From IMG/VR virus record IMGVR_UViG_3300046167_000092, positions 1 through 55,743 of that record: a stretch of DNA of 55,743 nucleotides. The stretch is one strand, 5' to 3'. The DNA is from a virus. The notes under the pieces are model-generated. The model searched no databases. It had not been told where the DNA came from and saw only the letters and a program-made list of their open reading frames with translations. Below, in pieces: positions 1 to 55,743 of this stretch (position 1 is its first letter; every line of letters starts with the position of its first letter). A program made the position numbers and the translations under genes.

Positions 1-12
1 ATAGTTCTTCAA

Positions 13-276
13 TCAATTTAATCCCTCCACTTTATGCCAGTACTCATCAAGGATAAGTACTTCTTCAAAGTTATGTTTATAATCTATATTTAAGTCTTCC
101 CATTGTTCATAAACCTTTTGAGTTCCGTCTTTAAAAGTTATGTGTAGGTCTGCTCTTAACAAGTCCCAATCTTCTACCTTATCCCAATCAATACCTAGTT
201 CTTCTAAGTCCCAACTAAGATATGCACTGTACCTAGCTTCTATATACTTTGGTTTATCACTATCAACATTCATCAT
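13..276 (-). CDS. Conserved small acidic protein (left copy)
   Basis: An 87-residue acidic protein of unknown function. It has no signal peptide or membrane segment. The core, around residues 13-85, is rich in Trp, Asp and Glu (for example SWDLEELGIDWDKVEDWDLL). It is closely matched by the 89-residue product at 50244-50513, which has a different N-terminus (MMSDWIEG versus MMNVDSD). Conservation of the reading frame between two diverged copies supports a real gene. Its start overlaps the end of the small gene at 263-406, so the two are probably co-translated. No function can be assigned. Confidence 0.8.
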   Translation of the reverse strand: MMNVDSDKPKYIEARYSAYLSWDLEELGIDWDKVEDWDLLRADLHITFKDGTQKVYEQWEDLNIDYKHNFEEVLILDEYWHKVEGLN

Positions 277-406
277 TAACCTCCTCGCCTAACCATAGCT
301 TAGTTTCTATAGTATCTCCTATAAACTCCCAAACATAATCCCAATTAGTACTGTAATATTTGTTTAGTAATTCTACTAATTCTTTTTCAAATTCTTTACT
401 CATCAT
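263..406 (-). CDS. Small hypothetical protein, left copy only
   Basis: A 47-codon reading frame beginning with a double Met (MMSKEFEKELVELLNKYY) and ending GEEVNDEC. It has a good ribosome binding site (AGGAGGT-like on the minus strand, just upstream of 406). It overlaps the start of the next gene by 14 bases, as is usual here. The equivalent place in the right copy instead holds two other small genes (50503-50670 and 50667-50822), so this slot is variable. Function unknown. Confidence 0.55.
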   Translation of the reverse strand: MMSKEFEKELVELLNKYYSTNWDYVWEFIGDTIETKLWLGEEVNDEC

Positions 407-413
407 CTACCTC

Positions 414-1126
414 CTATGCTGTTTGTATTACAAAGCCACTCGTATCTTTACTTGGCTTTACCCTTTGCTTTTAGACCAACAATCACATTGCTCTTATCTA
501 AAAATCTTAAGTCTGTTTCATCACCATTGACTACCTCTCTACCCTTGAAATGTATAGGCATCTCACCATTGAATACAACTGCTATGTTGTAAGCAATCTT
601 GTCGAACAGATTGGCGTACTTCATATTAGCTTCTGAGTAACTCCATGTCAAGTGATAGTTTTTATGTTGCTTTACTTTTCTTGTAGGTATCTTGGTGTAG
701 TCATAGAACTGAACAGTCGGAAAGATATCAAAGATATTTTGTCCATCTATCTTGATTGTCTCCCATTGTATGTCACTAGTACCATTCAGTCTTATGCAAG
801 GAAGCTTATCTTTCTTTTCACAGTATCTTACAAACTTCATGATGTCTGTAATCAGGTAAGTCATGAAGGTATTCTTAGTCCTCCAAATACAAATTAGTCT
901 TACGCTTTCTAGCTTCTTGTATGACATTAGTGGTTTCACCCTTCTTTATAATGCCACCTCTACCTGCTGTATTTAGACAGGCTTCCTTGCACCCTGCAAT
1001 GTCTTGATAAGGACATATCTTAGTGTTGATTGGACTCAAATGCATGATAGCAGTTAAGTAATTACTTAGCTTATCACCCTTCATAACTTTAGGGTTTCCA
1101 CTAACGGTTAATAGTTTATAGCTCAT
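414..1126 (-). pseudogene. Broken left copy of the Cys-motif phage protein at 50830-51657
   Basis: The intact right copy is a 275-residue protein. Here an extra base near 876-884 puts a stop straight after NLYLED. A block of about 40 codons present on the right (between ...IQWETI and the FPDVQFYD-like segment) is missing. A second extra base near 455 shifts the last ten codons. The fragments still align well: MSYKLL..., CPYQDIAGCKEACLNTAGRG, then TYLITDIMKFVRYCEKK... and QFYDYTKIPTRK. It may be real decay, or consensus errors on top of a natural deletion variant. The missing block cannot be a simple sequencing error. Confidence 0.8.
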
Positions 1127-1401
1127 ATTTTATCTCCATTAAGTTAAAATTAAAAGGTAGTTTTTCAGTCCCGAAGATTACTACCAACTTCTCCAACAGC
1201 AACTTGAACTATAGGTTTTTATAGTGCCTGTCAACACTCGCAAATTGTGGCTTTGTTGTTTAGAGTCTGTACAAACCTCCACGCAAATGTGGGAAAATCA
1301 GACTTTTAGTGTGTTGGAAAACGGTTTCTAGCACTTACTCCAACTCTCAACCCATGACCACGTTTAAGGATTTTATGATAGGCTCGTTTAACACTAAACT
1401 T
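1127..1401. other. Intergenic region with a possible minus-strand promoter
   Basis: I see no convincing gene here. On the minus strand TTGACA (1229-1234) is followed after 15 bases by TATAGT, a plausible but short-spaced sigma70 promoter for the broken gene at 414-1126. The part nearest 1401 (about 1300-1401) is nearly identical to 52094-52195. The rest differs from the right copy, which carries two small genes (51659-51871 and 51868-52047) in this place. Confidence 0.4.
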
Positions 1402-1806
1402 TTATGCAAACAATCTTCTGAATGACATAACTAACCTAGCAAAGAAGCTGTTAGTTGTGTAATATTCATAGTCGTTTATAACCTCTAAAGTATCTTGAAC
1501 ATCAATGTTTGAAGCTACTTCAAGTATTTGCATACCTTTGTTATCCTTACCAAGAGGTGTTCGCCTTACAAAATGTAAAGGTCTACTTGGTTTAGGTTTC
1601 TGATTATATATAGATACTTTACCTGAATGATAACCCTCAAAAGTATCTCCTGTAGTAATCTCATGCCTTTCTTTACTAGCTCTAACTCTAGCAATATTTA
1701 CACCTAAAATATTTAGTTCATTCCAAAGTGTTTGAATACTTTGTGGTGCTTTTTCGATTGATACAACAGTTTTTGTATCTCTTTTTCCATAGACGATTTT
1801 CGCCAT
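1402..1806 (-). CDS. Conserved hypothetical protein (left copy)
   Basis: A 134-residue basic protein of unknown function, starting MAKIVYGKRDTK, with an SD-like GGAGATATATT before the ATG. It has no signal peptide. The C-terminus (about residues 120-134) is a short basic amphipathic stretch rich in Phe and Arg. The right copy at 52196-52600 differs at only a few residues (I/V, V/G and L/M near the C-terminus), showing selection on the frame. It is flanked on both sides by untranslated stretches of about 270-310 bases, unlike most genes here. Confidence 0.75.
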   Translation of the reverse strand: MAKIVYGKRDTKTVVSIEKAPQSIQTLWNELNILGVNIARVRASKERHEITTGDTFEGYHSGKVSIYNQKPKPSRPLHFVRRTPLGKDNKGMQILEVASNIDVQDTLEVINDYEYYTTNSFFARLVMSFRRLFA

Positions 1807-2115
1807 AATATATCTCCATATTTTTAGTTAAAATTAAGGTGCTAGTTGGTTTATTTACTACTCAAACTAGCAGAAAGAGTATTTCAGGACTGTTGCTCGG
1901 TTTATATTTGTTCTAGTTTATCCTGATTGCACAGTTTAATTTTACGATTTAACAGTAATCCCTAGAGACCAAGCGATATTATTATTGTGCTTAAAGTTAA
2001 AACAGTAATTCAGTTTTACTTTGCTACACCTTGTGCTTGATGTCCTATAGTTTACATCTTCAAGAAAGCATTTTTTAATTAAATAATTTATGCCTTACAT
2101 CTTCTCGGATTCGGT
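1807..2115. other. Intergenic region, partly conserved between copies
   Basis: No reading frame or clear RNA is seen. The part adjoining 1806 and the part from about 1945 to 2115 are close to identical with 52601-52883. The middle (about 1880-1944) differs in sequence and length. The conserved part is AT-rich with short inverted segments. It could be a leader for the gene at 1402-1806. Confidence 0.35.
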
Positions 2116-2322
2116 TTAGTAAATTTCTTTTGAATATACTAGTTTAGAAGCAGTAGCATCTTTTAAAAACAAATCTAATCTTGTTTCTTCGATAACTTCT
2201 TTTTCTAATTCCCAGTCATATCTTGTGCTATGAATAACTAAATCTCTACATACAAAACAATTTCCTTTGTTTATTGCTTTTACTTCAATTTTAGTTACAT
2301 CTGATATTCTAATCGTTGCCAT
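2116..2322 (-). CDS. Small hypothetical protein, strongly allelic (left copy)
   Basis: A 68-residue protein (MATIRISDVTKIEVKAINKG...) ending SKLVYSKEIY. The right copy (52884-53090) has the same length and the same ends but differs at roughly a third of residues, while the flanking DNA is almost identical. It lies downstream of a minus-strand promoter at 2368-2407. The two Cys of the left form (CFVC) are reduced to one in the right form (YLC). Function unknown. Confidence 0.7.
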   Translation of the reverse strand: MATIRISDVTKIEVKAINKGNCFVCRDLVIHSTRYDWELEKEVIEETRLDLFLKDATASKLVYSKEIY

Positions 2323-2367
2323 AGTTATTTCCTTTTAGTTGTTTAGTCTTAGTAGACCTGTTAGTTA

Positions 2368-2407
2368 ATTGCCCCACTACAATAGCAAATCCAATCGGAG
2401 TTGTCAA
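2368..2407 (-). promoter_or_regulatory. Sigma70-type promoter with shared downstream GGGCAAT element
   Basis: On the minus strand TTGACA (2402-2407) is followed after 17 bases by TATTGT. GGGCAAT (2368-2374) lies where transcription should start. The same arrangement occurs before 3227 and 3705. It should drive the gene at 2116-2322. Confidence 0.65.
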
Positions 2408-2429
2408 GAGGAATAGGGCATATAAGTAT

Positions 2430-2717
2430 TTAATGTACGATTTTTAAATGACTTTTATTATGTAATTTACTTTCTTCTTTATAAGCAAGTTTATCTTCTT
2501 CAGAAACATTATCCCAATCATTATATGATAAATAAGGATTTTCAATGATATCAAAAGAAACTTTAGCTTTAGCTACTATGCTTGTAAATTCTGTAATTAA
2601 TTCTAATAAATCTTCTTTATCTAAATTAAATAAAAGATTTTCATAAGCTTCAAAGCCTTCCATGTCTGAAAGTCTTGTAAACTCTTCTATTTTATCGAAA
2701 TATTCTATTGCTTTCAT
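2430..2717 (-). CDS. Small acidic protein, unknown function (left copy)
   Basis: A 95-residue protein, MKAIEYFDKIEEF..., mostly predicted helical and acidic, with no signal or membrane segment. It is identical to the product at 53198-53485. It lies 10 bases downstream of the gene at 2728-3003 and has the SD-like sequence AGGAGTAA. It is probably part of an early operon with the genes at 2728-3227, transcribed from the promoter at 3247-3286. Its size and location in the host-takeover region fit an early modulator, but that is inference from position only. Confidence 0.75.
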   Translation of the reverse strand: MKAIEYFDKIEEFTRLSDMEGFEAYENLLFNLDKEDLLELITEFTSIVAKAKVSFDIIENPYLSYNDWDNVSEEDKLAYKEESKLHNKSHLKIVH

Positions 2718-2727
2718 ATGTTTACTC

Positions 2728-3003
2728 CTATATTTTCTCTATGTTCCAAACAGTTCCCTGCTCCATAGATGTTTTGTTTAAATAATCAAAAGTTGACGTA
2801 ACTTTCACCCAACCAAATCTACCCTGATAAATCATAGACCTATCTTCTTTCATGTTGAAAGCTTGTCTAAACCTGTAACCCTTTGATTTAAGGTAGACTT
2901 TTGCCTTCTCCAAGCTATTAAACCTTACAGGTTTTCTTGTTTGAGAGTCGACAATTGTTGCCATGTTTTGTAATCCATTTGGATTTTCACATTTCTTTTT
3001 CAT
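2728..3003 (-). CDS. Small basic protein, unknown function (left copy)
   Basis: A 91-residue basic protein beginning MKKKCENPNGLQNMATIVDS. An internal Met at residue 14 is an alternative start. The middle (RFNSLEKAKVYLKSKGYRFRQAFNM) looks like a small alpha/beta domain, followed by a Trp/Gly-rich strand region (YQGRFGWVKVTSTFDYL). It is identical to 53496-53771. The SD-like GGAGGT stands before the ATG, two bases after the upstream gene ends. No family recognised. Confidence 0.72.
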   Translation of the reverse strand: MKKKCENPNGLQNMATIVDSQTRKPVRFNSLEKAKVYLKSKGYRFRQAFNMKEDRSMIYQGRFGWVKVTSTFDYLNKTSMEQGTVWNIEKI

Positions 3004-3005
3004 AT

Positions 3006-3227
3006 TTACACCTCCATGTAATTGAATTGGTCATCATCAATGACGCTGTTAGCTTCTAATTCTAAGCAGAACTCCACAGTATCTAAGTAGTCTTGTTCTA
3101 CAAGACTTTCATCAGAGCAGTCTATAAGTTCATCATGTTTTATTTCATCAAACCTAACTTCAAGGCAGTCAAGGTCTGTGTAATATTCAAGTTCATCAGT
3201 TCTTTGTTTTTCGTTGGCTATTGCCAT
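3006..3227 (-). CDS. Small highly acidic protein, unknown function (left copy)
   Basis: A 73-residue, very acidic protein (MAIANEKQRTDELEYYTDLD...). It is rich in Asp and Glu with almost no Lys after residue 30, and has no Arg after residue 25. Such acidic small early proteins can act as DNA mimics or protein inhibitors, but nothing in the sequence proves that. It is identical to 53774-53995. It is the first gene after the promoter at 3247-3286, with the SD-like GGAGA before the ATG. Confidence 0.72.
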   Translation of the reverse strand: MAIANEKQRTDELEYYTDLDCLEVRFDEIKHDELIDCSDESLVEQDYLDTVEFCLELEANSVIDDDQFNYMEV

Positions 3228-3246
3228 AATCGTTCTCCATTGGTTG

Positions 3247-3286
3247 ATTGCCCTATCACATTAATCGATTGGACAAGAGTTGTCAA
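3247..3286 (-). promoter_or_regulatory. Sigma70-type promoter with GGGCAAT element
   Basis: On the minus strand TTGACA (3281-3286) and ACTC are followed after 17 bases by TAATGT, a weak -10. GGGCAAT (3247-3253) lies 27 bases below the -35. It is likely the promoter of the small gene set 3227-2430. Confidence 0.6.
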
Positions 3287-3295
3287 GTGAAAGTA

Positions 3296-3332
3296 CACAT
3301 GTAAAGCATAAACATAAAATACTTTACATGTG
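3296..3332. repeat. Inverted repeat of the ACATGTAAAG motif
   Basis: CACATGTAAAG (3296-3306) and its exact reverse complement CTTTACATGTG (3322-3332) flank a 15-base AT-rich spacer. It sits between the end of the gene at 3349-3705 and the promoter at 3247-3286. There is no T-run, so an operator is more likely than a terminator. It is repeated identically near 54064-54100. Confidence 0.7.
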
Positions 3333-3348
3333 ATGTATAAATAAATAT

Positions 3349-3705
3349 TTACCAAGACAGTCTGCTTGGCTCATAGTTGAAATCTTTAGGGTTACTTGTA
3401 AAACCATAATCTTTCCACCATGCTCTAGGTCTTGAATACTTACCTGTTTCATTATAAACTTTGCAGGAAGCATCAGTCATTGAGTCTCTACGCCATTGAA
3501 GAAACGCATGAACTTTGAATTTTTGTAAAGACATTCTCACTTTGTGAGCATTTGACCTCATTGTCACCCATTTTCTGCCTACTTTTATTTCATAACCACG
3601 ATAACCATACTTTCCATGAAAGTTTGTGTAGAAATGGTCAGACATTTGAGGGTTTAAAAGCCTTTCCATACGAGTTTCGCTAATTGCATTTACTAGATTT
3701 TCCAT
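3349..3705 (-). CDS. Basic hypothetical protein (left copy)
   Basis: A 118-residue basic protein rich in Arg, Lys, Trp and Tyr, with clusters such as KYGYRGYEIKVGRKW and the C-terminal PRAWWKDYGF. The composition would suit nucleic-acid binding, but no named fold is recognised. The right copy (54117-54473) differs in scattered residues in the first half (Q/K, H/V, A/V, S/P, Q/A) and is identical in the second. It is the first leftward gene after the promoter at 3757-3797. Confidence 0.75.
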   Translation of the reverse strand: MENLVNAISETRMERLLNPQMSDHFYTNFHGKYGYRGYEIKVGRKWVTMRSNAHKVRMSLQKFKVHAFLQWRRDSMTDASCKVYNETGKYSRPRAWWKDYGFTSNPKDFNYEPSRLSW

Positions 3706-4082
3706 ATATTTCCTGTGAACTCAATAGTTCGGTTGAAGCAGTCAGCGACATTGCTGATTGCCCCAATAAGCTTAGAGCCTGTTTTTGGAGTTGTCAAGAA
3801 GGAAAGCACAGGTAAACATGTTCTAACAGGCATACATGTAAATACAAACTTTATGTGATTTCTAATGTAAATTATTTACATGTTTATGCGTAAAGTTTCG
3901 CCCTGCCATCAAGGGTCAGATGTAAAGATTTTACACACACAGCACATGTAAAGCTTACGTGTAGGCGATTTGGAACTGCTGGTCTACTTTTTTGAGGTCA
4001 GATTTAGGGCAAAATAAATTATCACGCCTGTTGTCGCAGGAAGAATATTATTCTACGCAGGACAATCGCACATGTAATTAAT
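3706..4082. promoter_or_regulatory. Regulatory region with repeated ACATGTAAA motifs
   Basis: No gene is seen in this 377-base stretch. The motif ACATGTAAA, its reverse TTTACATGT, or close variants occur repeatedly, near 3813, 3832, 3863-3880, 3920 and 3947, with a further variant near 4071. Related copies form the inverted repeat at 3296-3332. GATGTAAAG-AT-TTTACAC and ATGTAAATTATTTACAT are local palindromes built from it. Iterons, or operators for an early regulator, are the likeliest reading. The region is largely conserved at 54474-54850. Confidence 0.6.
3757..3797 (-). promoter_or_regulatory. Sigma70-type promoter with GGGCAAT element
   Basis: TTGACA (3792-3797 on the minus strand) is followed after 17 bases by a weak TAAGCT, and GGGCAAT (3757-3763) lies downstream, 28 bases below the -35. 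It should drive the gene at 3349-3705. The -10 is poor, so an activator may be needed. Confidence 0.55.
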
Positions 4083-4112
4083 TTGCAATTTTCGGAAAAC
4101 TGTGAGTACAAT
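4083..4112 (+). promoter_or_regulatory. Probable sigma70 promoter for the short rightward transcript
   Basis: TTGCAA (4083-4088) and TACAAT (4107-4112) are separated by 18 bases. Both boxes are unchanged in the right copy (54852-54881). Transcription would start near 4119 and end at the terminator 4470-4493, giving an RNA of about 370 bases. Confidence 0.6.
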
Positions 4113-4232
4113 GTTTCGGCAAATCAATGTCGGTTTGCACAAATAGTCCCTTGGACTAAGGATGTTTTTATCAAAAATTCAACTCAAACTACGTTTACTC
4201 CTACTAACCCTAAAGCTAAAGCTTCCTACGGA

Positions 4233-4448
4233 ATGGTCAGAAAGATTGCTTCGCAGTTCAGCAAAGCTGAGAAGTGTCCAAAGGACATCAAATGGGGAAC
4301 TATTCATGGTCATTTCTTACAGAAATTAAATGACACAAAGTCTCCATTGACCCAAGGTCAAGTAGTTAAAATCTTAGCTATGAAGTCCTTGCCTTCGGCA
4401 GACTTGAAGGCTATGCGTTCTTACAAGAAACTTGTAAGTCTTGCATAG
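4233..4448 (+). CDS. Small basic protein of unknown function (left copy), start uncertain
   Basis: From this Met the frame encodes 71 residues (MVRKIASQFSKAEKCPKDIK...), basic and probably helical. The frame is open further upstream in this copy to a TTG at 4083. That TTG lies inside the -35 box, and the right copy has an in-frame stop (TAA at 54909-54911) after ...CRFA, so the long form is not conserved. No strong SD precedes 4233. Nucleotide identity between the copies is nearly complete, so an RNA function is also possible. It could be a small regulator transcribed from 4083-4112. No family recognised. Confidence 0.5.
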   Translation: MVRKIASQFSKAEKCPKDIKWGTIHGHFLQKLNDTKSPLTQGQVVKILAMKSLPSADLKAMRSYKKLVSLA

Positions 4449-4469
4449 TAGCTAAAGCTACTCACTAAG

Positions 4470-4493
4470 AAGACCCTTCGGGGTCTTTTTTTT
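4470..4493 (+). terminator. Rho-independent terminator
   Basis: AAGACCC, a TTCG tetraloop and GGGTCTT form a 7-bp stem followed by eight T's. It ends the rightward transcript carrying the gene at 4233-4448. The same element stands at 55239-55262. Confidence 0.92.
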
Positions 4494-4957
4494 GGCCTAA
4501 AATAACCTAAAGTCTTTAAAAGACTTCAACACATACAGAGACTTTGAAAGTCTCCCTAATAGGCCGTCAATTGTTTTCAGCACCCAAATCATAGATTTGT
4601 CCTACGGAAACACACATACACCCTACACAGCATAACAAGTTCACAGGAAGCTTTATAAGCTTTCCTAGGCTCTTGTTTACATGAGGTGAAGGTTATCATC
4701 AACCATAGGTTGAAAAGCTTTGTAATGGCTTTAGAATGCTGTATAGCTTGGTAAACTCTGTAGAGTTTGTAGAGTTATAGAATAGACGTATATTTTCTAT
4801 GAAAATCTTGGAAACTTCAGAGAACTCTTAAGCCTTTGGCTTAGACTTGGTAGATTTTGGTAAGTTCTGTAGAGTCTTTAAAGTCTAGTAAGACTTTAAG
4901 TTGGGAATAATTTCATTAGCTTGGTAAACTCTATAGAGTTTAGTAGGGGAGGCAAGA

Positions 4958-4984
4958 CCCACCCACCCCCACCCATATATATAT
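4958..4984 (-). other. G-quadruplex motif next to an AT run
   Basis: On the minus strand the bases 4974-4958 read GGGTGGGGGTGGGTGGG, four G-tracts with single-base loops, a pattern known to form very stable parallel quadruplexes. It is followed on the plus strand by alternating AT (4975-4984). The right end of the contig (55743) stops exactly at the last base of this motif. It lies downstream of the leftward promoter at 5148-5176, so the RNA from there would carry the G-rich strand. Confidence 0.75.
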
Positions 4985-5060
4985 ACTAATGCTTATACAT
5001 TTTTAGGGAATTTGAGTTGGAAACTTCACAGAGCTTTTCTCTCTTTATAGAGAGCTAATT

Positions 5061-5098
5061 GTTTGTTCGGGTTCGGTAGGTTTGTTCGGGTTCAATAG
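5061..5098 (+). repeat. 19-bp tandem direct repeat, two copies
   Basis: GTTTGTTCGGGTTCGGTAG (5061-5079) is repeated directly as GTTTGTTCGGGTTCAATAG (5080-5098), differing at two bases. It lies in the non-coding hub just downstream of the leftward promoter. It may be a protein binding site. Confidence 0.75.
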
Positions 5099-5147
5099 GT
5101 CTAGAATGACCATGAGGATATGTTTCAACCCCGGCACACTTAATGTT

Positions 5148-5176
5148 ATTATATAGTTCAGAATCACTTTTGTCAA
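5148..5176 (-). promoter_or_regulatory. Perfect consensus sigma70 promoter, leftward
   Basis: On the minus strand TTGACA (5171-5176), 17 bases and TATAAT (5148-5153) match consensus exactly. The transcript would start near 5141 and run through the 19-bp repeat, the quadruplex and the hairpin array, antisense to 4233-4448. The first leftward gene lies more than 1.4 kb away. It may make a long structured RNA. Confidence 0.8.
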
Positions 5177-5202: not shown

Positions 5203-5231
5203 TTGACAAACTCTATATAAACCTCTATAAT
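5203..5231 (+). promoter_or_regulatory. Perfect consensus sigma70 promoter for the packaging and late operon
   Basis: TTGACA (5203-5208), a 17-base spacer and TATAAT (5226-5231) match consensus exactly. The expected first base of the RNA, seven bases on, is the A of the ATG at 5238, so the message is probably leaderless. Its -35 box lies 26 bases from that of the opposite promoter. Confidence 0.85.
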
Positions 5232-6593: not shown

Positions 6594-6801
6594 ATGGTCT
6601 AAACAGAAGTGGAGGACTGCCAGTGGCAAAAAGTCTTCTAAAACTGGAGAAGTCTACGCACCTGCTAAAACAATAGCAAAGCTTAAGTCTACTGCTGCTG
6701 GTAGAAAAAAACTTGCAGCAGCTAATGCTAAAAAGAAAGCAGCTACTAAAAAAGGTAAACAACACGCAAAGCACGGATTACATAAAGGCAAGAAAAGGTA
6801 G
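6559..6801 (+). CDS. Conserved small Lys-rich phage protein
   Basis: An 80-residue protein, MPKAKSQKSLDRWSKQKWRT then ASGKKSSKTGEVYAPAKTI and a Lys/Ala-rich tail. The pattern KSLxxWxxQxWxTxSGKxSxxTGExYxP is a recurrent conserved phage motif of unknown function. The net charge is very positive. Its stop overlaps the GTG of the large terminase by one base. Confidence 0.72.
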   Translation: MPKAKSQKSLDRWSKQKWRTASGKKSSKTGEVYAPAKTIAKLKSTAAGRKKLAAANAKKKAATKKGKQHAKHGLHKGKKR

Positions 6802-8594
6802 TGAAAGAAGGCTACATAAAGAAAAAGAGTGTAACCATTCCTTTTGGTTACAAACTAAGCGAAGTAGAAGGATACTTAGCTCCCATACAAGAAGAACTAG
6901 ATGTTCTTAATAAGTATATAGAGTCTGTAGTAAACGAGGAGTATTCACTCCGTAAAGCAGCAGAACTCATTAAAGAAGAAACAGGTAGAAGTATAACACA
7001 TGTAGGACTATCTAAAATAATAAAGAATACGTATATTCCTGAAAGTGGTAAATATCAATACTCTAAAGAGACTAAAAGAAAACAAAAACTAGCTAGAGAT
7101 AAAAAAGAACTAATCAAAGCTAAAAAGAAAATAGCCTACAAAGAATCTAAACTTAAAACAGAACAAGAGGTTATTAAAAAAGCAACAGAAAAAACTACAG
7201 ATAAGGTAGTTACTACCGACCAATTAGAACAAGTAGCACCAAGCATACAAGAAGTACTTAGAGATTCTAAGGTTGTTTTCCATGCCAATGAAGGACCACA
7301 GACAGACTTTTTAGCTGCTAGTGAGAAAGATGTTCTTTATGGTGGAGCTGCTGGTGGAGGAAAATCCTATGCCATGCTTGTTGACCCATTAAGGTATGCA
7401 CACAAAAAAGCTCATCGTGCATTAATTCTAAGGCGTTCTATGCCGGAACTACGAGAAATGATTGACAAGTCTAGAGAGTTATATCCTCAAGCATTTCCCG
7501 GAGCTAAGTTTAAAGAAGTTGAAAAGCTTTGGAACTTTCCTAGTGGTGCTAAAGTAGAGTTTGGTTTCCTTGAAAGAGATGCAGATGTATACAGATATCA
7601 AGGACAAGCATATAGTTGGATAGGCTTTGATGAGATAACTCACTTACCTACAGAGTTTAGTTGGAACTATCTTGCTTCAAGACTACGTACTACTGACCCT
7701 GAAATACAAACATACCTTAGATGTACTGCTAACCCCGGAGGGGTTGGGTCTCATTGGGTAAAACAAAGATACATAGAACCTAACGAAAACAATAAAAGTT
7801 TTAAAGGTACTGACGGTTTAACACGTAAGTTTATTCCTGCTAAGTTAGCTGATAACCCTTACTTAGATGCTGATGGTGTTTATGAGCAAATGCTTAAGTC
7901 ACTACCTGCTACGCAAAGACAGCAACTCTTAGAAGGTAACTGGGATGTTGCTGAAGGTGCAGCTTTTACAGAGTTTGACCCATTAGCTCATGTTATTACT
8001 CCATTTGCTCTTCCTGTACACTGGGAAAGAGTCAAGGGTATTGACTATGGTTATGCATCAGAATCTTGTTGTTTATGGGGAATAATGGACATAAATGATA
8101 ATACTTTAATAATATATAGAGAATTATACAAAAAAGGCTTGACAGGTGAGGAATTAGCCTCTATAATAACAGATATGGAAACAGAAGACCCTTTCTCAGT
8201 GAGTGGGGTTTTAGATACAGCAGCATGGGCAAATACAGGAACTACTGGTCCTACTGTTGGAGAAAGTTTAGTTAGAGCTGGTCATAAGTTAAGACGAGCT
8301 GATAAGAATAGAATACAAGGTAAAATACAAATACACGAGTATTTAAAGATTAGAGAGAACGGTAGACCTAAGTTACAGATATTTAATACATGTCCTAACT
8401 TAATAAGAGAATTACAGTCAATACCATTATCTAAAACTAATCCTGAAGATGTAGATACACATGCTTCTGACCACGCATATGATGCATTGCGTTATATGAT
8501 AATGAGTAGACCAAGAATGGTAAGCCCGTTAGAACGTATAAGAGGTCTAAAGAGAGAAATGTATAGACCAGTAGACTCAACATTTGGTTATTAA
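6801..8594 (+). CDS. terL: Terminase large subunit
   Basis: A 597-residue DNA-packaging motor. It combines an ATPase that pumps DNA into the procapsid with a nuclease that cuts concatemers. Walker A is GGAAGGGKS at 181-189, Walker B SWIGFDE ends at Asp277-Glu278, and TANPGG (coupling motif) follows. Nuclease acidic residues include Asp416 (KGIDYGY), Asp472 (GVLDTAAW) and the DHAYDALRY segment. Before the ATPase lie about 130 residues with a helix-turn-helix-like part (about 37-75, ending HVGLSKIIKNTY) and a Lys-rich coiled coil (about 90-125), which T4 and lambda enzymes lack. The start is GTG, overlapping the upstream stop. Confidence 0.95.
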   Translation: MKEGYIKKKSVTIPFGYKLSEVEGYLAPIQEELDVLNKYIESVVNEEYSLRKAAELIKEETGRSITHVGLSKIIKNTYIPESGKYQYSKETKRKQKLARDKKELIKAKKKIAYKESKLKTEQEVIKKATEKTTDKVVTTDQLEQVAPSIQEVLRDSKVVFHANEGPQTDFLAASEKDVLYGGAAGGGKSYAMLVDPLRYAHKKAHRALILRRSMPELREMIDKSRELYPQAFPGAKFKEVEKLWNFPSGAKVEFGFLERDADVYRYQGQAYSWIGFDEITHLPTEFSWNYLASRLRTTDPEIQTYLRCTANPGGVGSHWVKQRYIEPNENNKSFKGTDGLTRKFIPAKLADNPYLDADGVYEQMLKSLPATQRQQLLEGNWDVAEGAAFTEFDPLAHVITPFALPVHWERVKGIDYGYASESCCLWGIMDINDNTLIIYRELYKKGLTGEELASIITDMETEDPFSVSGVLDTAAWANTGTTGPTVGESLVRAGHKLRRADKNRIQGKIQIHEYLKIRENGRPKLQIFNTCPNLIRELQSIPLSKTNPEDVDTHASDHAYDALRYMIMSRPRMVSPLERIRGLKREMYRPVDSTFGY

Positions 8595-22498: not shown

Positions 22499-23273
22499 GT
22501 GGATAGAAGAAGTAACAATATATTAAAGAAGTATAAAAGCAGTGCTAAATCAGCAACGTCTTCTAAAAAAAAGTCAGTAAAGACACCACCAAAGAAAACA
22601 GTACCACCTAGGAAAGAAACAGTAAAGACACCACCAAAGAAAACAGTACCACCTAGGAAAGAAACAGCAAAGACACCACCAAAGAAAACAGTACCACCAA
22701 AGAAACCTGCTCCGACTCCTGCTCCTACCCCAGCACCGACTCCAGCCCCAACAGCAGCACCGACACCTGCTCCAAACATAACTCCAGTAAAGGAATTAAA
22801 TATGAAACAAAAAAAAACAAAAAAAACCAGTAAAAAAACCAGTAAAAGCACCTGAAGAAAGAAGAGACCCACCAATGTCTATAGGTGGCGTAGGTGGTGG
22901 ACAAGGTGGTCCGGGAGAAAATGAACCAACACCTGCACCAACAGCAGCTCCAACAGCAGCTCCAACAGCAGCACCAACAGCAGCCCCTACTCCTGCACCA
23001 ACTACAGCTCCTTCTACAAACCTTGAAATAGAAAGAAAAACAGAAACTCCTGTACAAGAAGATGGAACAGTTTTTAGTACTTATCAAAAAGACGCTGCAT
23101 TAGAAGCTGCAAGAAAAGAAAGAATTAGAGAAACAGGATTACAAACTGAAGCTGCTGCAAGAGGAGAAGTTCCTGAAGGTGCTAAACTTAAAGATGCTGA
23201 ACAAGTAGGAGGAATAGACCCTGAAACTGGAGAGCCTATAGTACGAGACCAAGTTACTACTGAAAATGGCTGA
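22499..23273 (+). CDS. Pro/Ala/Lys-rich virion-type protein, frame shifted in A-runs
   Basis: The first part (22499-22855, GTG start) has a 15-residue Lys/Pro repeat and a Pro-Ala-Thr linker, then stops. The second part opens before 22875: reading from about 22820 gives KPVKKPVKAPEERRDPP, then MSIGGVGGG and a second Pro-Ala-Thr linker. One extra base within A9 (22809-22817) or A8 (22819-22826) splits what should be a single protein of about 258 residues. This may be a consensus error, or polymerase slippage on A9. The second half ends in a helical, charged region and overlaps the next gene by 8 bases. Confidence 0.72.
22576..22698 (+). repeat. 45-bp tandem repeat, nearly three copies
   Basis: The unit coding for VKTPPKKTVPPRKET (22576-22620) is repeated at 22621-22665 and partly from 22666. 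The first two differ very little. It extends a Lys/Pro linker in the protein at 22499-23273. Confidence 0.85.
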
Positions 23274-50066: not shown

Positions 50067-50244
50067 TATCTTCCCTCCACGTTTCTTGTTCAATAAATTC
50101 TACCACACTGTCTCTAAGATTGCAAATAGTTGCAAACTGTTGGTGTTCAATGTCAATACTAGACACTCCATACTTTTCTAAAAGATTATAAAAATCATCT
50201 TGAAAGTTTATAAAATCATTATCTGTCATTTCTTTAGCTGTCAT
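50059..50244 (-). CDS. Small acidic hypothetical protein
   Basis: A 61-residue protein from MTAKEMTDNDFINFQDDFYN. Its start overlaps the stop of the gene at 50244-50513 by one base (TGATG). Acidic, Asp/Glu/Gln-rich, helical. No equivalent lies within the window at the left end, because the copy starts at about this point. Unknown function. Confidence 0.58.
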   Translation of the reverse strand: MTAKEMTDNDFINFQDDFYNLLEKYGVSSIDIEHQQFATICNLRDSVVEFIEQETWREDNE

Positions 50245-50513
50245 CAGTTCAATCCCTCCACTTTGTGCCAATCCTCATCAAGGATAAGTACTTCTTCAAA
50301 GTTATGTTTATAATCTATGTCTAAGTCTTGCCAGTTTTCATACACCTTTTGAGTTCCGTCTTTAAAAGTTATGTGTAGGTCTGCTCTTAACAAGTCCCAA
50401 TCTTCTATATCGTCCCAGTCAATACCTAGTTCATCTAAATCCCAACTAAGATATGCACTGTATCTAGCTTCTATCTTCTTAGGTTTAGTTCCTTCTATCC
50501 AATCACTCATCAT
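50244..50513 (-). CDS. Conserved small acidic protein (right copy)
   Basis: 89 residues, the counterpart of the gene at 13-276. The body from IEARYSAYLSWDLDELGIDW onward is nearly identical, while the first dozen residues (MMSDWIEGTKPKK) are new. Acidic and Trp-rich, no known family. Its first codons overlap the end of the small gene at 50503-50670. Confidence 0.8.
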   Translation of the reverse strand: MMSDWIEGTKPKKIEARYSAYLSWDLDELGIDWDDIEDWDLLRADLHITFKDGTQKVYENWQDLDIDYKHNFEEVLILDEDWHKVEGLN

Positions 50514-50670
50514 CTTCCTCCCATGTTTTTACTTCTGTTATTTCTAAAGTGTCTTTATATACACCCCACCTATCCCACATAATATCTATAGCATGTTCTT
50601 TGCTTTCAGCATAGTCATCTAAAGAATCTATCTGAACAGTTGTGCTTACTGTTATCTCATATACTTTCAT
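50503..50670 (-). CDS. Small hypothetical protein, right copy only
   Basis: A 55-residue protein, MKVYEITVSTTVQIDSLDDY..., with a beta-beta-alpha-like pattern, ending KTWEEDDE. This N-terminal strand followed by AESKEHAIDIM is like the small domain of several phage early proteins. It overlaps its neighbours at both ends. The left copy has a different gene here (263-406). Confidence 0.6.
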   Translation of the reverse strand: MKVYEITVSTTVQIDSLDDYAESKEHAIDIMWDRWGVYKDTLEITEVKTWEEDDE

Positions 50671-50822
50671 GTTATCTCCTGTGTTGTGTCTATCTCATCT
50701 ACCATATCCCATACATCATCAAAGGCTTCTTCTACTTTGACATCACATATCTTACTTTCTACTTCAATATGTAAGATGTTTAAAAGTTCTCTGAAGTCAC
50801 ACCATTGTTTATATGTCATCAT
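50667..50822 (-). CDS. Small acidic hypothetical protein, right copy only
   Basis: A 51-residue protein, MMTYKQWCDFRELLNILHIE..., helical, with an acidic Asp/Glu/Val-rich end. A strong SD, AGGAGGT, lies just upstream, after the end of the Cys-motif gene. ATGA overlap with the next gene. Unknown function; no equivalent on the left. Confidence 0.58.
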   Translation of the reverse strand: MMTYKQWCDFRELLNILHIEVESKICDVKVEEAFDDVWDMVDEIDTTQEIT

Positions 50823-50829
50823 CTACCTC

Positions 50830-51657
50830 CTATGCTGTTTGTATTACAAAGCCACTAGTATCTTTACGTGCTTTGCCCTTTGCTTTCAGACCAACAATCA
50901 CATTGCTCTTATCTAAAAATCTTAAATCACTTTCATCACCATTGACTACCTCTCTACCTTTGAAATAGATAGGCATATCACCATTGAATACAACTGCTAT
51001 GTTGTAAGCAATCTTGTCGAACAGATTGGCGTACTTCATATTAGCTTCTGAGTAGCTCCATGTCAAGTGATAGTTTTTATGTTGCTCTACTTTTCTTGTA
51101 GGTATCTTGGTGTAATCATAGAACTGTACATCAGGAAATAACTCAAAGATATTTTTAGCTTCTCGCCAACCTAAGTCTACAAGTTCTTTACACGGTTTCC
51201 ATTCAGGGTGTCCATAGCCTTCAAAGTATTCTGCATATTCTTGAAGTAAATACATTTGTGAAATACCATAGTGAGTATTCTTTGTAGGTATAGTTTCCCA
51301 TTGTATGTCACTAGTACCATTCAATCTTATGCAAGGAAGCTTATCTTTCTTTTCACAGTATCTTACAAACTTCATGATGTCTGTAATCAGGTAAGACATG
51401 AAGGTTTCTTTGTCCTCCAAATACAAATTAGTCTTACGCTTTCTAGCTTCTTGTATGACATTAGTGGTTTCACCCTTCTTTATAATGCCACCTCTACCTG
51501 CTGTATTTAGACAGGCTTCCTTGCACCCTGCAATATCCTGATAAGGACATATCTTGGTATTGATTGGACTCAAATGCATGATAGCAGTCAAGTAATTACT
51601 TATCTTCTCACCCTTTAAAACTTTAGGGTTGTTAAAACTCAATAGTTTGTAACTCAT
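50830..51657 (-). CDS. Cys-motif phage protein (GP88-like), intact right copy
   Basis: A 275-residue protein. A distinctive N-terminal part has a likely metal-binding cluster ICPYQDIAGCKEACLNTAGR (Cys at about 38, 45 and 49), then RARKRKTNLYLED-like basic residues and RLNGTSDIQWE. The C-terminal half (about 165-275) contains DYTKIPTRK and TWSYSEAN. This resembles mycobacteriophage gp88-type proteins of unknown role, whose Cys cluster suggests an iron-sulphur or zinc site. That link is from memory of the pattern. The left copy (414-1126) is broken. Confidence 0.7.
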   Translation of the reverse strand: MSYKLLSFNNPKVLKGEKISNYLTAIMHLSPINTKICPYQDIAGCKEACLNTAGRGGIIKKGETTNVIQEARKRKTNLYLEDKETFMSYLITDIMKFVRYCEKKDKLPCIRLNGTSDIQWETIPTKNTHYGISQMYLLQEYAEYFEGYGHPEWKPCKELVDLGWREAKNIFELFPDVQFYDYTKIPTRKVEQHKNYHLTWSYSEANMKYANLFDKIAYNIAVVFNGDMPIYFKGREVVNGDESDLRFLDKSNVIVGLKAKGKARKDTSGFVIQTA

Positions 51658-51658
51658 A

Positions 51659-51871
51659 TTATTCCTCCTCTATGCTTTTAAATCTTACAACTTCTGATGA
51701 ATGTAAATATTCTTGAAAGTTGTAAAAGTAATCTTCATTTCTATTAGCTATATGTTGGTTCTCATCACTACCTGCATACCTTATAGCTTGTGCTTCATTC
51801 TCTGCGTCAACTTCTATAGTTGCTACATAATGTCTTTCTACTTCTATTAAGTAAGTTCCTTCTTTTGTCAT
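51659..51871 (-). CDS. Small hypothetical protein, right copy only
   Basis: A 70-residue protein from MTKEGTYLIEVERHYVATIE, with a beta-rich first half, AENEAQAIRYAGSDENQHIA, and an acidic end. The start at 51871 overlaps the stop of the zinc-ribbon gene (ATGA); a longer frame from 51928 would cover that gene. There is no left counterpart. Unknown function. Confidence 0.62.
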   Translation of the reverse strand: MTKEGTYLIEVERHYVATIEVDAENEAQAIRYAGSDENQHIANRNEDYFYNFQEYLHSSEVVRFKSIEEE

Positions 51872-52047
51872 ACTAATTGCTCCATTCTTGTAGGTAAAAC
51901 AAATACTGAATGACAGTGAGAACAACATCTACCTTTTGCATAAGGCTCTGCGTTGTCTCCCTGATTCCAATATACTTTACCTTCAGGTGTTTTCTTTTGT
52001 TCTATATCACCTTCACAGATGACACATTCTAATACTTCATCAAACAT
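51868..52047 (-). CDS. Small zinc-ribbon-like protein, right copy only
   Basis: A 59-residue protein, MFDEVLECVICEGDIEQKKT..., with CVIC near the start and CCSHCHS near the middle: two Cys-pair knuckles about 30 residues apart, a zinc-ribbon pattern. It could bind nucleic acid or a host protein. GGAGATAAAAT precedes the start. It is missing from the left copy. Confidence 0.62.
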   Translation of the reverse strand: MFDEVLECVICEGDIEQKKTPEGKVYWNQGDNAEPYAKGRCCSHCHSVFVLPTRMEQLV

Positions 52048-52195
52048 ATTTTATCTCCGTTAAGTTAAAAGAGGCACTTTAAAGTGATACCTAGCACTTT
52101 TAGTGTGTTGGAAAACGGTTTCTAGCACTTACTCCAACTCTCAACCTATGACCACGTTTAAGGATTTTATAATAGGCTCGTTCAACACTAAACTT
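52048..52195. other. Short intergenic region before the early gene cluster
   Basis: Only 148 bases. From about 52094 it matches 1300-1401 with a few changes. It holds GTGTTGGAAAACGG and CTCCAACTC segments of unknown role. No gene or promoter stands out. Confidence 0.35.
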
Positions 52196-52600
52196 TTATG
52201 CAAACATTCTTCTGAATGACATACCTAACCTAGCAAAGAAGCTGTTAGTTGTGTAATATTCATAGTCGTTTACAACTTCTAAAGTATCTTGAACATCAAT
52301 GTTTGAAGCTACTTCAAGTATTTGCATACCTTTGTTATCCTTACCAAGAGGTGTTCGCCTTACAAAATGTAAAGGTCTACTTGGTTTAGGTTTCTGATTA
52401 TATATAGATACTTTACCTGAATGATAACCCTCAAAAGTATCTCCTGTAGTAATCTCATGCCTTTCTTTACTAGCTCTAACTCTAGCAATGTTTACACCTA
52501 GAATATTTAGTTCATTCCAAAGTGTTTGAATACTTTGTGGTGCTTTTTCGATTGATACAACAGTTTTTGTATCTCTTTTTCCATAGACGATTTTCGCCAT
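52196..52600 (-). CDS. Conserved hypothetical protein (right copy)
   Basis: 134 residues, the counterpart of 1402-1806, nearly identical (I/V, V/G and L/M near the C-terminus). The GGAGATATATT before its ATG is conserved too. Basic, no family recognised. Confidence 0.75.
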   Translation of the reverse strand: MAKIVYGKRDTKTVVSIEKAPQSIQTLWNELNILGVNIARVRASKERHEITTGDTFEGYHSGKVSIYNQKPKPSRPLHFVRRTPLGKDNKGMQILEVASNIDVQDTLEVVNDYEYYTTNSFFARLGMSFRRMFA

Positions 52601-52883
52601 AATATATCTCCATATTTTTAGTTAAAATTAAGGTGCTAGTTGGTTTATTTACTACTCAAACTAGCAGAAAGAGTATTTCAGGACTGTTTCCTAGACTTCT
52701 TTTGTATTTCATCTGTATAACAGTAATCCCTAGAGACCAAGCGATATTATTATTGTGCTTAAAGTTAAAACAGTAATTCAGTTTTACTTTGCTACACCTT
52801 GTGCTTGATGTCCTATAGTTTACATCTTCAAGAAAGCATTTTTTAATTAAATAATTTATGCCTTACATCTTTTCGGATTCGGT
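52601..52883. other. Intergenic region matching 1807-2115
   Basis: No gene is seen. About 26 bases shorter than the left version; its start and end are close to identical, and the middle (about 52685-52712) differs. The conserved flanks around a variable centre suggest recombination within it. Confidence 0.35.
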
Positions 52884-53090
52884 TTAGTATACTTCTTTAG
52901 AATATACTAGCTTAGAAGCAGAAGCATTATCTAAAAACAAATCTAATTTTGTTTCTTCTGTAATGTAGTCATTCAATTCAAAGTCATATTTTTTACTATG
53001 TATGACTATATCTCTACAAAGATATGAATCTCCTTTGTTTACTTTTTTCACTTCAATTTTAGTTACTCTATGTATTCTTATTTCTGCCAT
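52884..53090 (-). CDS. Small hypothetical protein, strongly allelic (right copy)
   Basis: 68 residues, MAEIRIHRVTKIEVKKVNKG..., the diverged allele of the gene at 2116-2322. Same length, same C-terminal SKLVYSKE-Tyr. The changes are spread over the whole gene, mostly charged and surface-type residues, as if under diversifying selection. It follows the promoter at 53136-53175. Confidence 0.7.
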   Translation of the reverse strand: MAEIRIHRVTKIEVKKVNKGDSYLCRDIVIHSKKYDFELNDYITEETKLDLFLDNASASKLVYSKEVY

Positions 53091-53135
53091 GTTTATTTCC
53101 TTTTAGTTGTTTAGTCTTAGTAGACCTGTTAGTTA

Positions 53136-53175
53136 ATTGCCCCACTACAATAGCAAATCCAATCGGAGTTGTCAA
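53136..53175 (-). promoter_or_regulatory. Promoter with GGGCAAT element (right copy)
   Basis: TTGACA (53170-53175 on the minus strand), 17 bases and TATTGT, then GGGCAAT. Same as at 2368-2407. Likely promoter of the gene at 52884-53090. Confidence 0.62.
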
Positions 53176-53197
53176 GAGGAATAGGGCATATAAGTAT

Positions 53198-53485
53198 TTA
53201 ATGTACGATTTTTAAATGACTTTTATTATGTAATTTACTTTCTTCTTTATAAGCAAGTTTATCTTCTTCAGAAACATTATCCCAATCATTATATGATAAA
53301 TAAGGATTTTCAATGATATCAAAAGAAACTTTAGCTTTAGCTACTATGCTTGTAAATTCTGTAATTAATTCTAATAAATCTTCTTTATCTAAATTAAATA
53401 AAAGATTTTCATAAGCTTCAAAGCCTTCCATGTCTGAAAGTCTTGTAAACTCTTCTATTTTATCGAAATATTCTATTGCTTTCAT
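53198..53485 (-). CDS. Small acidic protein, unknown function (right copy)
   Basis: 95 residues, identical to the product of 2430-2717. Kept unchanged even though nearby genes diverge, so it is either recently exchanged or strongly constrained. Confidence 0.75.
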   Translation of the reverse strand: MKAIEYFDKIEEFTRLSDMEGFEAYENLLFNLDKEDLLELITEFTSIVAKAKVSFDIIENPYLSYNDWDNVSEEDKLAYKEESKLHNKSHLKIVH

Positions 53486-53495
53486 ATGTTTACTC

Positions 53496-53771
53496 CTATA
53501 TTTTCTCTATGTTCCAAACAGTTCCCTGCTCCATAGATGTTTTGTTTAAATAATCAAAAGTTGACGTAACTTTCACCCAACCAAATCTACCCTGATAAAT
53601 CATAGACCTATCTTCTTTCATGTTGAAAGCTTGTCTAAACCTGTAACCCTTTGATTTAAGGTAGACTTTTGCCTTCTCCAAGCTATTAAACCTTACAGGT
53701 TTTCTTGTTTGAGAGTCGACAATTGTTGCCATGTTTTGTAATCCATTTGGATTTTCACATTTCTTTTTCAT
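53496..53771 (-). CDS. Small basic protein, unknown function (right copy)
   Basis: 91 residues, identical to the product of 2728-3003, with the same GGAGGT-type SD and the same spacing to its neighbours. Confidence 0.72.
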   Translation of the reverse strand: MKKKCENPNGLQNMATIVDSQTRKPVRFNSLEKAKVYLKSKGYRFRQAFNMKEDRSMIYQGRFGWVKVTSTFDYLNKTSMEQGTVWNIEKI

Positions 53772-53773
53772 AT

Positions 53774-53995
53774 TTACACCTCCATGTAATTGAATTGGTC
53801 ATCATCAATGACGCTGTTAGCTTCTAATTCTAAGCAGAACTCCACAGTATCTAAGTAGTCTTGTTCTACAAGACTTTCATCAGAGCAGTCTATAAGTTCA
53901 TCATGTTTTATTTCATCAAACCTAACTTCAAGGCAGTCAAGGTCTGTGTAATATTCAAGTTCATCAGTTCTTTGTTTTTCGTTGGCTATTGCCAT
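53774..53995 (-). CDS. Small highly acidic protein (right copy)
   Basis: 73 residues, identical to the product of 3006-3227. First gene after the promoter near 54015-54054. Confidence 0.72.
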   Translation of the reverse strand: MAIANEKQRTDELEYYTDLDCLEVRFDEIKHDELIDCSDESLVEQDYLDTVEFCLELEANSVIDDDQFNYMEV

Positions 53996-54014
53996 AATCG
54001 TTCTCCATTGGTTG

Positions 54015-54054
54015 ATTGCCCTATCACATTAATCGATTGGACAAGAGTTGTCAA
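54015..54054 (-). promoter_or_regulatory. Promoter with GGGCAAT element (right copy)
   Basis: TTGACA (54049-54054 on the minus strand), 17 bases and TAATGT, then GGGCAAT. Same as at 3247-3286. Confidence 0.58.
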
Positions 54055-54063
54055 GTGAAAGTA

Positions 54064-54100
54064 CACATGTAAAGCATAAACATAAAATACTTTACATGTG
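54064..54100. repeat. Inverted repeat CACATGTAAAG (right copy)
   Basis: Same 11-base arms and 15-base spacer as at 3296-3332, unchanged between copies, which supports a function as a binding site. Confidence 0.68.
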
Positions 54101-54116
54101 ATGTATAAATAAATAT

Positions 54117-54473
54117 TTACCAAGACAGTCTGCTTGGCTCATAGTTGAAATCTTTAGGGTTACTTGTAAAACCATAATCTTTCCACCATGCTCTAGGTCT
54201 TGAATACTTACCTGTTTCATTATAAACTTTGCAGGAAGCGTCAGTCATTGAGTCTCTACGCCATTGAAGAAACGCATGAACTTTAAATTTTGCCAAAGGC
54301 ATTCTTACTTTGTGAACATTTGACCTCATAGTTACCCATTTTCTACCCACTTTTATTTCATAACCACGATAGCCATATTTACCAACAAAGTTGGTATAGA
54401 AGTGGTCAGACATCTTAGGATTTAAAAGCCTTTCCATACGAGTTTCGCTAATTGCATTTACTAGATTTTCCAT
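54117..54473 (-). CDS. Basic hypothetical protein (right copy)
   Basis: 118 residues, counterpart of 3349-3705. The N-terminal half has changes (Q20K, H30V and others) and the C-terminal half is the same. Rich in Arg, Trp and Tyr. No family recognised. Confidence 0.75.
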   Translation of the reverse strand: MENLVNAISETRMERLLNPKMSDHFYTNFVGKYGYRGYEIKVGRKWVTMRSNVHKVRMPLAKFKVHAFLQWRRDSMTDASCKVYNETGKYSRPRAWWKDYGFTSNPKDFNYEPSRLSW

Positions 54474-54850
54474 ATATTTCCTGTGAACTCAATAGTTCGG
54501 TTGAAGCAGTCAGCGACATTGCTGATTTGCCCAACTAGTTTAGAGCCTGTTTTTGAAGTTGTCAAGGAGGAACTGTGTGCGTAAACATGTTCTAACAGGC
54601 ACATGTATAAATACAAACTTTATGTGATTTCTGATGTAAATTATTTACATGTTTATGCGTAAAGTTTCGCCCTGCCATCAAGGGTCAGATGTAAAGATTT
54701 TACACACACAGCACATGTAAAGCTTACGTGTAGGCGATTTGGAACTGCTGGTCTACTTTTTTGAGGTCAGATTTAGGGCAAAATAAATTATCACGCCTGT
54801 TGTCGCAGGAAGAATATTATTCTACGCAGGACAATCGCACATGTAATTAA
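54474..54850. promoter_or_regulatory. Regulatory region with ACATGTAAA motifs (right copy)
   Basis: Counterpart of 3706-4082, with no gene. TTGACA at 54560-54565 (minus) and the GGGCAAAT variant recall the promoter at 3757-3797. The motifs near 54600, 54633-54650, 54688 and 54714 are kept. The part nearest the gene (54520-54610) has several changes and the rest very few. Confidence 0.55.
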
Positions 54851-54851
54851 T

Positions 54852-54881
54852 TTGCAATTTTCGGAAAACTGTGAGTACAAT
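54852..54881 (+). promoter_or_regulatory. Probable sigma70 promoter (right copy)
   Basis: TTGCAA, 18 bases and TACAAT, identical to 4083-4112. Confidence 0.58.
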
Positions 54882-55001
54882 GTTTCGGCAAATCAATGTC
54901 GGTTTGCATAAATAGTCCCTTGGACTAAGGATGTTTTTATCAAAAATTCAACTCAAACTACGTTTACTCCTACTAACCCTAAAGCTAAAGCTTCCTACGG
55001 A

Positions 55002-55217
55002 ATGGTCAGAAAGATTGCTTCGCAGTTCAGCAAAGCTGAGAAGTGTCCAAAGGACATCAAATGGGGAACAATTCATGGTCATTTCTTACAGAAATTAAAT
55101 GACACAAAGTCTCCATTGACCCAAGGTCAAGTAGTTAAAATCTTAGCTATGAAGTCCTTGCCTTCGGCAGACTTGAAGGCTATGCGTTCTTACAAGAAAC
55201 TTGTAAGTCTTGCATAG
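55002..55217 (+). CDS. Small basic protein (right copy), start uncertain
   Basis: 71 residues from MVRKIASQFSKAEKCPKDIK, with the same protein as 4233-4448. A single base change (C to T at 54909) makes an in-frame stop upstream, so any start must lie after it. No strong SD is seen before the Met. Confidence 0.5.
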   Translation: MVRKIASQFSKAEKCPKDIKWGTIHGHFLQKLNDTKSPLTQGQVVKILAMKSLPSADLKAMRSYKKLVSLA

Positions 55218-55238
55218 TAGCTAAAGCTACTCACTAAG

Positions 55239-55262
55239 AAGACCCTTCGGGGTCTTTTTTTT
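55239..55262 (+). terminator. Rho-independent terminator (right copy)
   Basis: Same stem, TTCG loop and T-run as at 4470-4493. Confidence 0.92.
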
Positions 55263-55743
55263 GGCCTAAAATAACCTAAAGTCTTTAAAAGACTTCAACA
55301 CATACAGAGACTTTGAAAGTCTCCCTAATAGGCCGTCAATTGTTTTCAGCACCCAAATCATAGATTTGTCCTACGGAAACACACATACACCCTACACAGC
55401 ATAACAAGTTCACAGGAAGCTTTATAAGCTTTCCTAGGCTCTTGTTTACATGAGGTGAAGGTTATCATCAACCATAGGTTGAAAAGCTTTGTAATGGCTT
55501 TAGAATGCTGTATAGCTTGGTAAACTCTTTAGAGTTTGTAGAGTTATAGAATAGACGTATATTTTCTATGAAAATCTTGGAAACTTCAGAGAACTCTTAA
55601 GCCTTTGGCTTAGACTTGGTAGATTTTGGTAAGTTCTGTAGAGTCTTTAAAGTCTAGTAAGACTTTAAGTTGGGAATAATTTCATTAGCTTGGTAAACTC
55701 TATAGAGTTTAGTAGGGGAGGCAAGACCCACCCACCCCCACCC
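55263..55743. other. Hairpin array (right copy) to contig end
   Basis: No gene. It repeats the left array from 4494 to 4974 with very few changes; one, a T for G at 55529 in the loop of the hairpin matching 4753-4768, leaves the stem intact. It ends in the C-rich quadruplex motif at the last base of the window. Confidence 0.7.

Follow-up and report, generated by a model that had tools for sequence, protein, structure and literature searches.

The G-quadruplex (G4) motif on which a viral contig ends is a local form of a single-copy, non-coding cis element that is common to phages of the HMO-2011 type, is apparently undescribed so far, and most likely marks the start of genome packaging (or copying). 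The contig, hereafter the window, is an IMG/VR virus record of 55,743 bases. It belongs to the HMO-2011-type phage group by its terminase large subunit (TerL), which shares 65.7% amino acid identity with the TerL of Pelagibacter phage HTVC115P (over 89%) and 46.3% with that of HMO-2011 (over 77%). A published abstract calls such phages dominant and widely distributed in the ocean.

The motif and the conserved element around it

The sequence CCCACCCACCCCCACCC occupies positions 4958-4974, with its C-runs on the plus strand, and its second copy at 55727-55743 constitutes the last 17 bases of the window. The initial annotation had described a minus-strand motif of four G-tracts with one-base loops beside an alternating AT run, and had placed the end of its right copy on the window's last base; both descriptions are accurate, the run ATATATATATA following the left copy directly. 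Apart from these two copies, neither strand of the whole window holds a G4 motif of the form G3+N1-7. Dinucleotide shuffles of bases 1-50768 yielded any G4 in 4 of 400 cases and one with three one-base loops in none of the 400; the minus-strand motif is beyond chance in the window's genome.

Alignment of the region upstream of the terS-like gene from 31 relatives and the window showed that the motif sits within a shared block of some 70 bases, and a profile HMM of this block was run against 245 sequences. With two window-derived loci, the window's own cut right copy and matches above an E value of 0.02 left out, 117 sequences were kept, of which 85 were distinct; several of the loci share a contig with another. 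Of 80 related loci with a terS-like gene, 74 have an HMM match upstream of that gene, once in each and never in antisense, at a distance of 166-429 bases (median 206). Two of the six loci that lacked a match are cut by contig ends, and inspection by eye revealed a G-run form in three others and a C-run form in the last. Within the window, the sole full-length match reported by nhmmer spans 4946-5003, with no second full copy. The element comprises a GC-run, a GGCARGA box, further GC-runs, TATATATA and TACATTTT, and is read toward the terS/terL operon. Across the 85 sequences there is hardly any variation in the ATATAT core, in ACATTT or in the GGC with which the GGCARGA box begins, least of all in the last two bases of this GGC (Table 1).

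Table 1. Positions of the element, its parts and neighbouring features in the window
Feature	Position	Strand	Remarks
Degenerate palindromic repeats around AAACTCTNTAGAGTTT, TTGGTAA spacers, iteron-like	4740..4948		Also in close relatives
Conserved 58-bp element	4946..5003	+	nhmmer
First GC-run, GGGG	4946..4949	+	C-run in some relatives
GGCAAGA box	4951..4957	+	Columns 16, 17 and 20 of the 85-sequence alignment 95-99% one base
GGGTGGGGGTGGGTGGG, G4-capable form of the element's central GC-runs	4958..4974	-	3-tier G4 in 5/71 distinct cores
Alternating ATATATATATA	4975..4985		Alignment columns 45-50 nearly invariant among 85 sequences
TACATTTT box	4996..5003	+	Columns 63-69: 87-100% one base
Two 19-bp direct repeats GTTTGTTCGGGTTCNNTAG	5061..5098	+	
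Perfect sigma70-type promoter pattern, leftward	5148..5176	-	12/12, spacer 17; aligned in relatives
Perfect sigma70-type promoter pattern, TTGACA-17-TATAAT	5203..5231	+	12/12, spacer 17
terS-like ORF, 140 aa	5238..5660	+	Positional counterpart of HTVC115P 'putative terminase small subunit'
Terminase large subunit, HMO-2011 type	6801..8594	+	65.7% aa identity to HTVC115P TerL region
Diverged second copy of bases 12-4974 (second haplotype)	50243..55743		
Second G4 motif copy, element severed midway by contig end	55727..55743	-	

Two further features of the window were recorded. A short plus-strand ORF at 4083-4448, with related proteins in 27 loci, is followed by a hairpin and a T-run, and several tandem repeats of 12-45 bp lie in and between short late-region ORFs at 22575-23002.

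GC-runs and quadruplex potential among relatives

The GC-runs of the element are kept as runs and not as letters, with G or C on either strand. Every one of the 71 distinct cores contains a run of at least four G or C, and the longest run averages 5.27 bases, compared with 4.46 (sd 0.16, maximum 5.07) in shuffles of the same composition. Classified by the runs of box 1 and of the core, the 85 sequences fall into G/C (64), C/C (14) and G/G (5) types, with box 1 undefined in 2; in the relatives L272 and L274, GGGGG and CCCCC stand at the same position. One contig (3300027413_000125; L239:1-40) begins within the G-run of the element with 12 G, which may reflect a genuinely long run or an artefact of sequencing.

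The quadruplex itself is kept far less consistently. A 3-tier G4 can form in just 5 of the 71 distinct cores, the shuffles giving 1.45 on average and 5 at most, so the element does not belong to a conserved G-quadruplex class, and the G4 is rejected as the conserved unit. Since this potential is so rare and the runs may be either G or C, we consider the G4 incidental; the view of it as a working feature is not borne out among the relatives. A DNA or RNA quadruplex under selection as a barrier, of the kind found at mitochondrial CSB 2, would accord with the excess over chance in the window's genome and with RNA folding, in which the G4 is preferred when quadruplexes are allowed (-27.0 vs -22.2 kcal/mol), but its scarcity among the cores, within the range of the shuffles, makes this explanation very improbable. 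Two other candidates were considered. A hairpin pairing GGGG with CCCC is rejected because box 1 and the central run can be made of the same base (both C in 14/85, both G in 5/85), and for primase sites of the T7 type the alignment holds no constant GTC. The case warns that even a conspicuous G4 may arise in one lineage as a side effect of some other constraint.

The contig end and its two diverged copies

The initial annotation had offered two explanations for the end of the contig at the motif, namely a polymerase or assembler halted by the quadruplex, or a real DNA end or packaging cut at that point. Bases 1302-4974 are 96.2% identical to 52096-55743, with indels, and three further blocks on the left (12-256, 400-740 and 755-1137) are 91-93.5% identical to the right copy, with different spacing. 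The differences cluster at 1800-2400 and 3400-4000, whereas the approximately 1 kb between them (2400-3400) is identical. This clustering around an identical stretch points to recombining strains, and not to random error or to the terminal repeat of one concatemer; the mosaic divergence looks like recombination between co-occurring strains, and the two end copies are probably two strains joined by assembly. A direct terminal repeat is rejected because the copies are just 96% identical, with indels and clustered differences.

The exact 17-mer also occurs in homologous context in five other contigs (L097, L099, L006, L178/L339 and L069, with duplicate loci), all of which extend beyond it, leftward for 175 bases or more and, going by the longest locus per contig, rightward for 2066 or more. 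As these contigs continue past the 17-mer, there is no support for a fixed end at this base or for a block that would stop polymerases everywhere, and because the left copy within the window is likewise crossed, the G4 is not a general block. The stop at the motif is probably an assembly effect: the assembler may have walked past the circle into the second haplotype and halted at a variant point after the C-run, within the stretch of GC-run and AT-run. Thus, of the initial proposals, an assembly stop is likely to stand, and a general block falls. That the genome physically ends here, in a long terminal repeat cut precisely at the quadruplex, would agree with the window stopping on the last base of the motif; given the mosaic differences and indels between the end copies and the five contigs that cross the motif, it is hardly credible.

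Possible roles in packaging or replication, and comparison with known systems

We tentatively interpret the element as the packaging-initiation (pac) site of HMO-2011-type phages, a function inferred from the conservation and run bias described above and from the following lines of evidence, and held with somewhat less than even confidence. The small terminase would bind the oriented element through its GGCARGA box, GC-runs, TATATATA and TACATTTT, the large terminase would cut concatemeric DNA beside it, and headful packaging would then run toward the late genes. Pac sites typically lie near or within the small-terminase gene; the element lies 166-429 bp before the terS-like gene in 74 of the 80 loci, and kilobases from that gene in HMO-2011 and the CRP phages.

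The distribution of the element among isolated phages was explored with the HMM, a symmetric pattern and a regex. On distant isolates the profile HMM found nothing better than an E value of 2.9 outside the window. A symmetric pattern (pattern 1) had its best match in a non-coding gap of HMO-2011 (score 34), CRP-1 (33), part of MW202701 (34), HTVC115P (32), HTVC103P (31), parts of HTVC104P (30) and HTVC033P (30), and phiM6 (31); as shuffle maxima for these genomes reach 27-30, scores of 30-31 are unconvincing alone. Applied to CRP-3, CRP-235, CRP-9 and CRP-738, pattern 1 picked the expected place as best match in one of the four, with a score of 30 that does not exceed the shuffles (27-31). Because of its failure on the other three, a looser regex was written. 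Out of 13 sequences, partial records among them, 9 had a match where the gap was expected, and CRP-738 had one extra match elsewhere; for these 13 the regex is post hoc. Fixed beforehand and applied to 50-kb stretches of four new genomes, the regex gave a single match each in CRP-207 (53860), CRP-212 (50445) and CRP-13 (54608), each in non-coding DNA and on the late-operon strand; it found no match in the stretch from CRP-345, where a near form with GGG as its first run was seen by eye in the gap. Matches per shuffle averaged 0.03-0.13 for the four new genomes and 0-0.2 in dinucleotide shuffles of 14 genomes.

Isolated HMO-2011-type phages hence carry weaker forms of the element in a non-coding gap, read toward the late operon even with terS kilobases away. 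The element lies near 53.6 kb in HMO-2011, where the ORF in the terS position, annotated as hypothetical, is at 45.2-45.5 kb, and near 53.5 kb in CRP-1, with terS near 48.5-48.8 kb. Since terS, or the ORF in its place, is thus about 5-8 kb off in these two phages, the element goes with its non-coding gap and with the direction in which the late operon is read, rather than with terS; this distance counts against a pac site.

The pac interpretation draws on phiM6, the only phage for which read-based information was found. According to PhageTerm its genome is terminally redundant, and the predicted pac start serves as its position 1 (PMC6256558). The best pattern-1 match of the phiM6 genome has its box at about 56 and the same direction as TerL, so that about 55 bp separate this top-scoring candidate element from the published pac start, a coincidence to be read with the facts that the likeness was seen by eye before pattern 1 was written and that PhageTerm on phiM6 is one prediction. 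The candidate, which both the HMM and the regex missed, is weak. The upstream ends of contigs are over-represented 300-500 bp ahead of terS (9 of 59, vs 1.7 per 200 bp elsewhere), less so in the TerL-anchored set (4 of 63 vs 1.6). Assembly trouble would also explain this enrichment, since contigs can break in a variable AT-rich gap without any packaging cut. The earlier suggestion that the motif lies in a packaging or origin region survives in changed form, by virtue of the conserved single-copy element and the nearby phiM6 pac start, and not on account of the G4.

The main rival is that the element is part of a replication origin, where the AT stretch melts between GC clamps, the adjoining repeats bind an initiator, or the R-loop of a leftward transcript primes synthesis. 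In the window as in HMO-2011, CRP-1, CRP-207 and CRP-13, the element is flanked by divergent arms, which speaks for an origin, as do the adjoining iteron-like repeats and the perfect leftward promoter pattern, from which a transcript would run through the element and carry the G-run as RNA. On the other hand, the element of CRP-3, CRP-235, CRP-738 and CRP-212 sits in a gap inside the minus-strand arm, off the divergent junction, and the varying strand of the run is contrary to an RNA:DNA G4 mechanism. Cumulative GC skew, in 1.5-kb windows, is lowest around 3-5.5 kb, but skew is confounded with gene strand, and because the latter switches at the same place the minimum is not independent evidence. 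We regard an origin as possible though unlikely, and prefer a pac site because the phiM6 pac start and candidate element coincide.

A site of transcription control, for instance a leader or operator serving the divergent early and late operons, appears more doubtful still. The two back-to-back perfect promoter patterns 145-228 bp from the element's end and its constant orientation relative to the late operon fit this role, but the element ends 166-429 bp before terS, away from both promoters, swapping of G and C in its runs would be odd for an operator, and the window has only the one full copy. The ATG of the terS-like gene lies 6 bp past the -10 box of the rightward pattern, which suggests that its late transcript is leaderless or nearly so. 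At the start of the leftward transcript, CAACCCCGGCACACTTAATGTTATTATATAG (5114-5160) is kept in nearly all aligned relatives and may be an operator or a conserved RNA 5' end.

If the element is indeed a pac site, it may represent a type, shared within one of the most abundant phage groups of the ocean, whose essential feature would be homopolymeric G:C runs flanking an AT stretch, read via duplex shape, with each run free to flip strand; this more specific proposal is speculative and rather unlikely to hold in full. In the portions available, PMC9038755 and PMC6918029 offered nothing relevant on ends, permutation or promoters. Within the partly available HMO-2011-type literature that was searched, we found no description of a packaging start, an origin or physical ends, except for phiM6. 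With a conserved marker of the likely start, packaging could be tested directly on public virome reads, and contig breaks at the element would be easier to explain.

Phage T7 has fixed ends with direct repeats. Its left genome end (NC_001604, L358) resembles the element in carrying CCCCCATAGGGGG runs in its first 40 bp, and its CATAGGGGGT is also found in the HTVC103P element; the fixed ends and the different phage group set T7 apart, and no homology is claimed. The G-tract of mitochondrial CSB 2 (PMC5027508) is transcribed, variable in length and tied to replication, traits that the G-tract of the element would share, but there the G4 is the working feature, whereas the element's runs occur on either strand. 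A further comparison is with the pac start of phiM6, a Sinorhizobium phage related to HMO-2011 (PMC6256558): though the similarity is weak and escaped the HMM and the regex, this start is likewise upstream of TerL in a non-coding gap, and the candidate element is situated about 55 bp inside this predicted start, in the same orientation.
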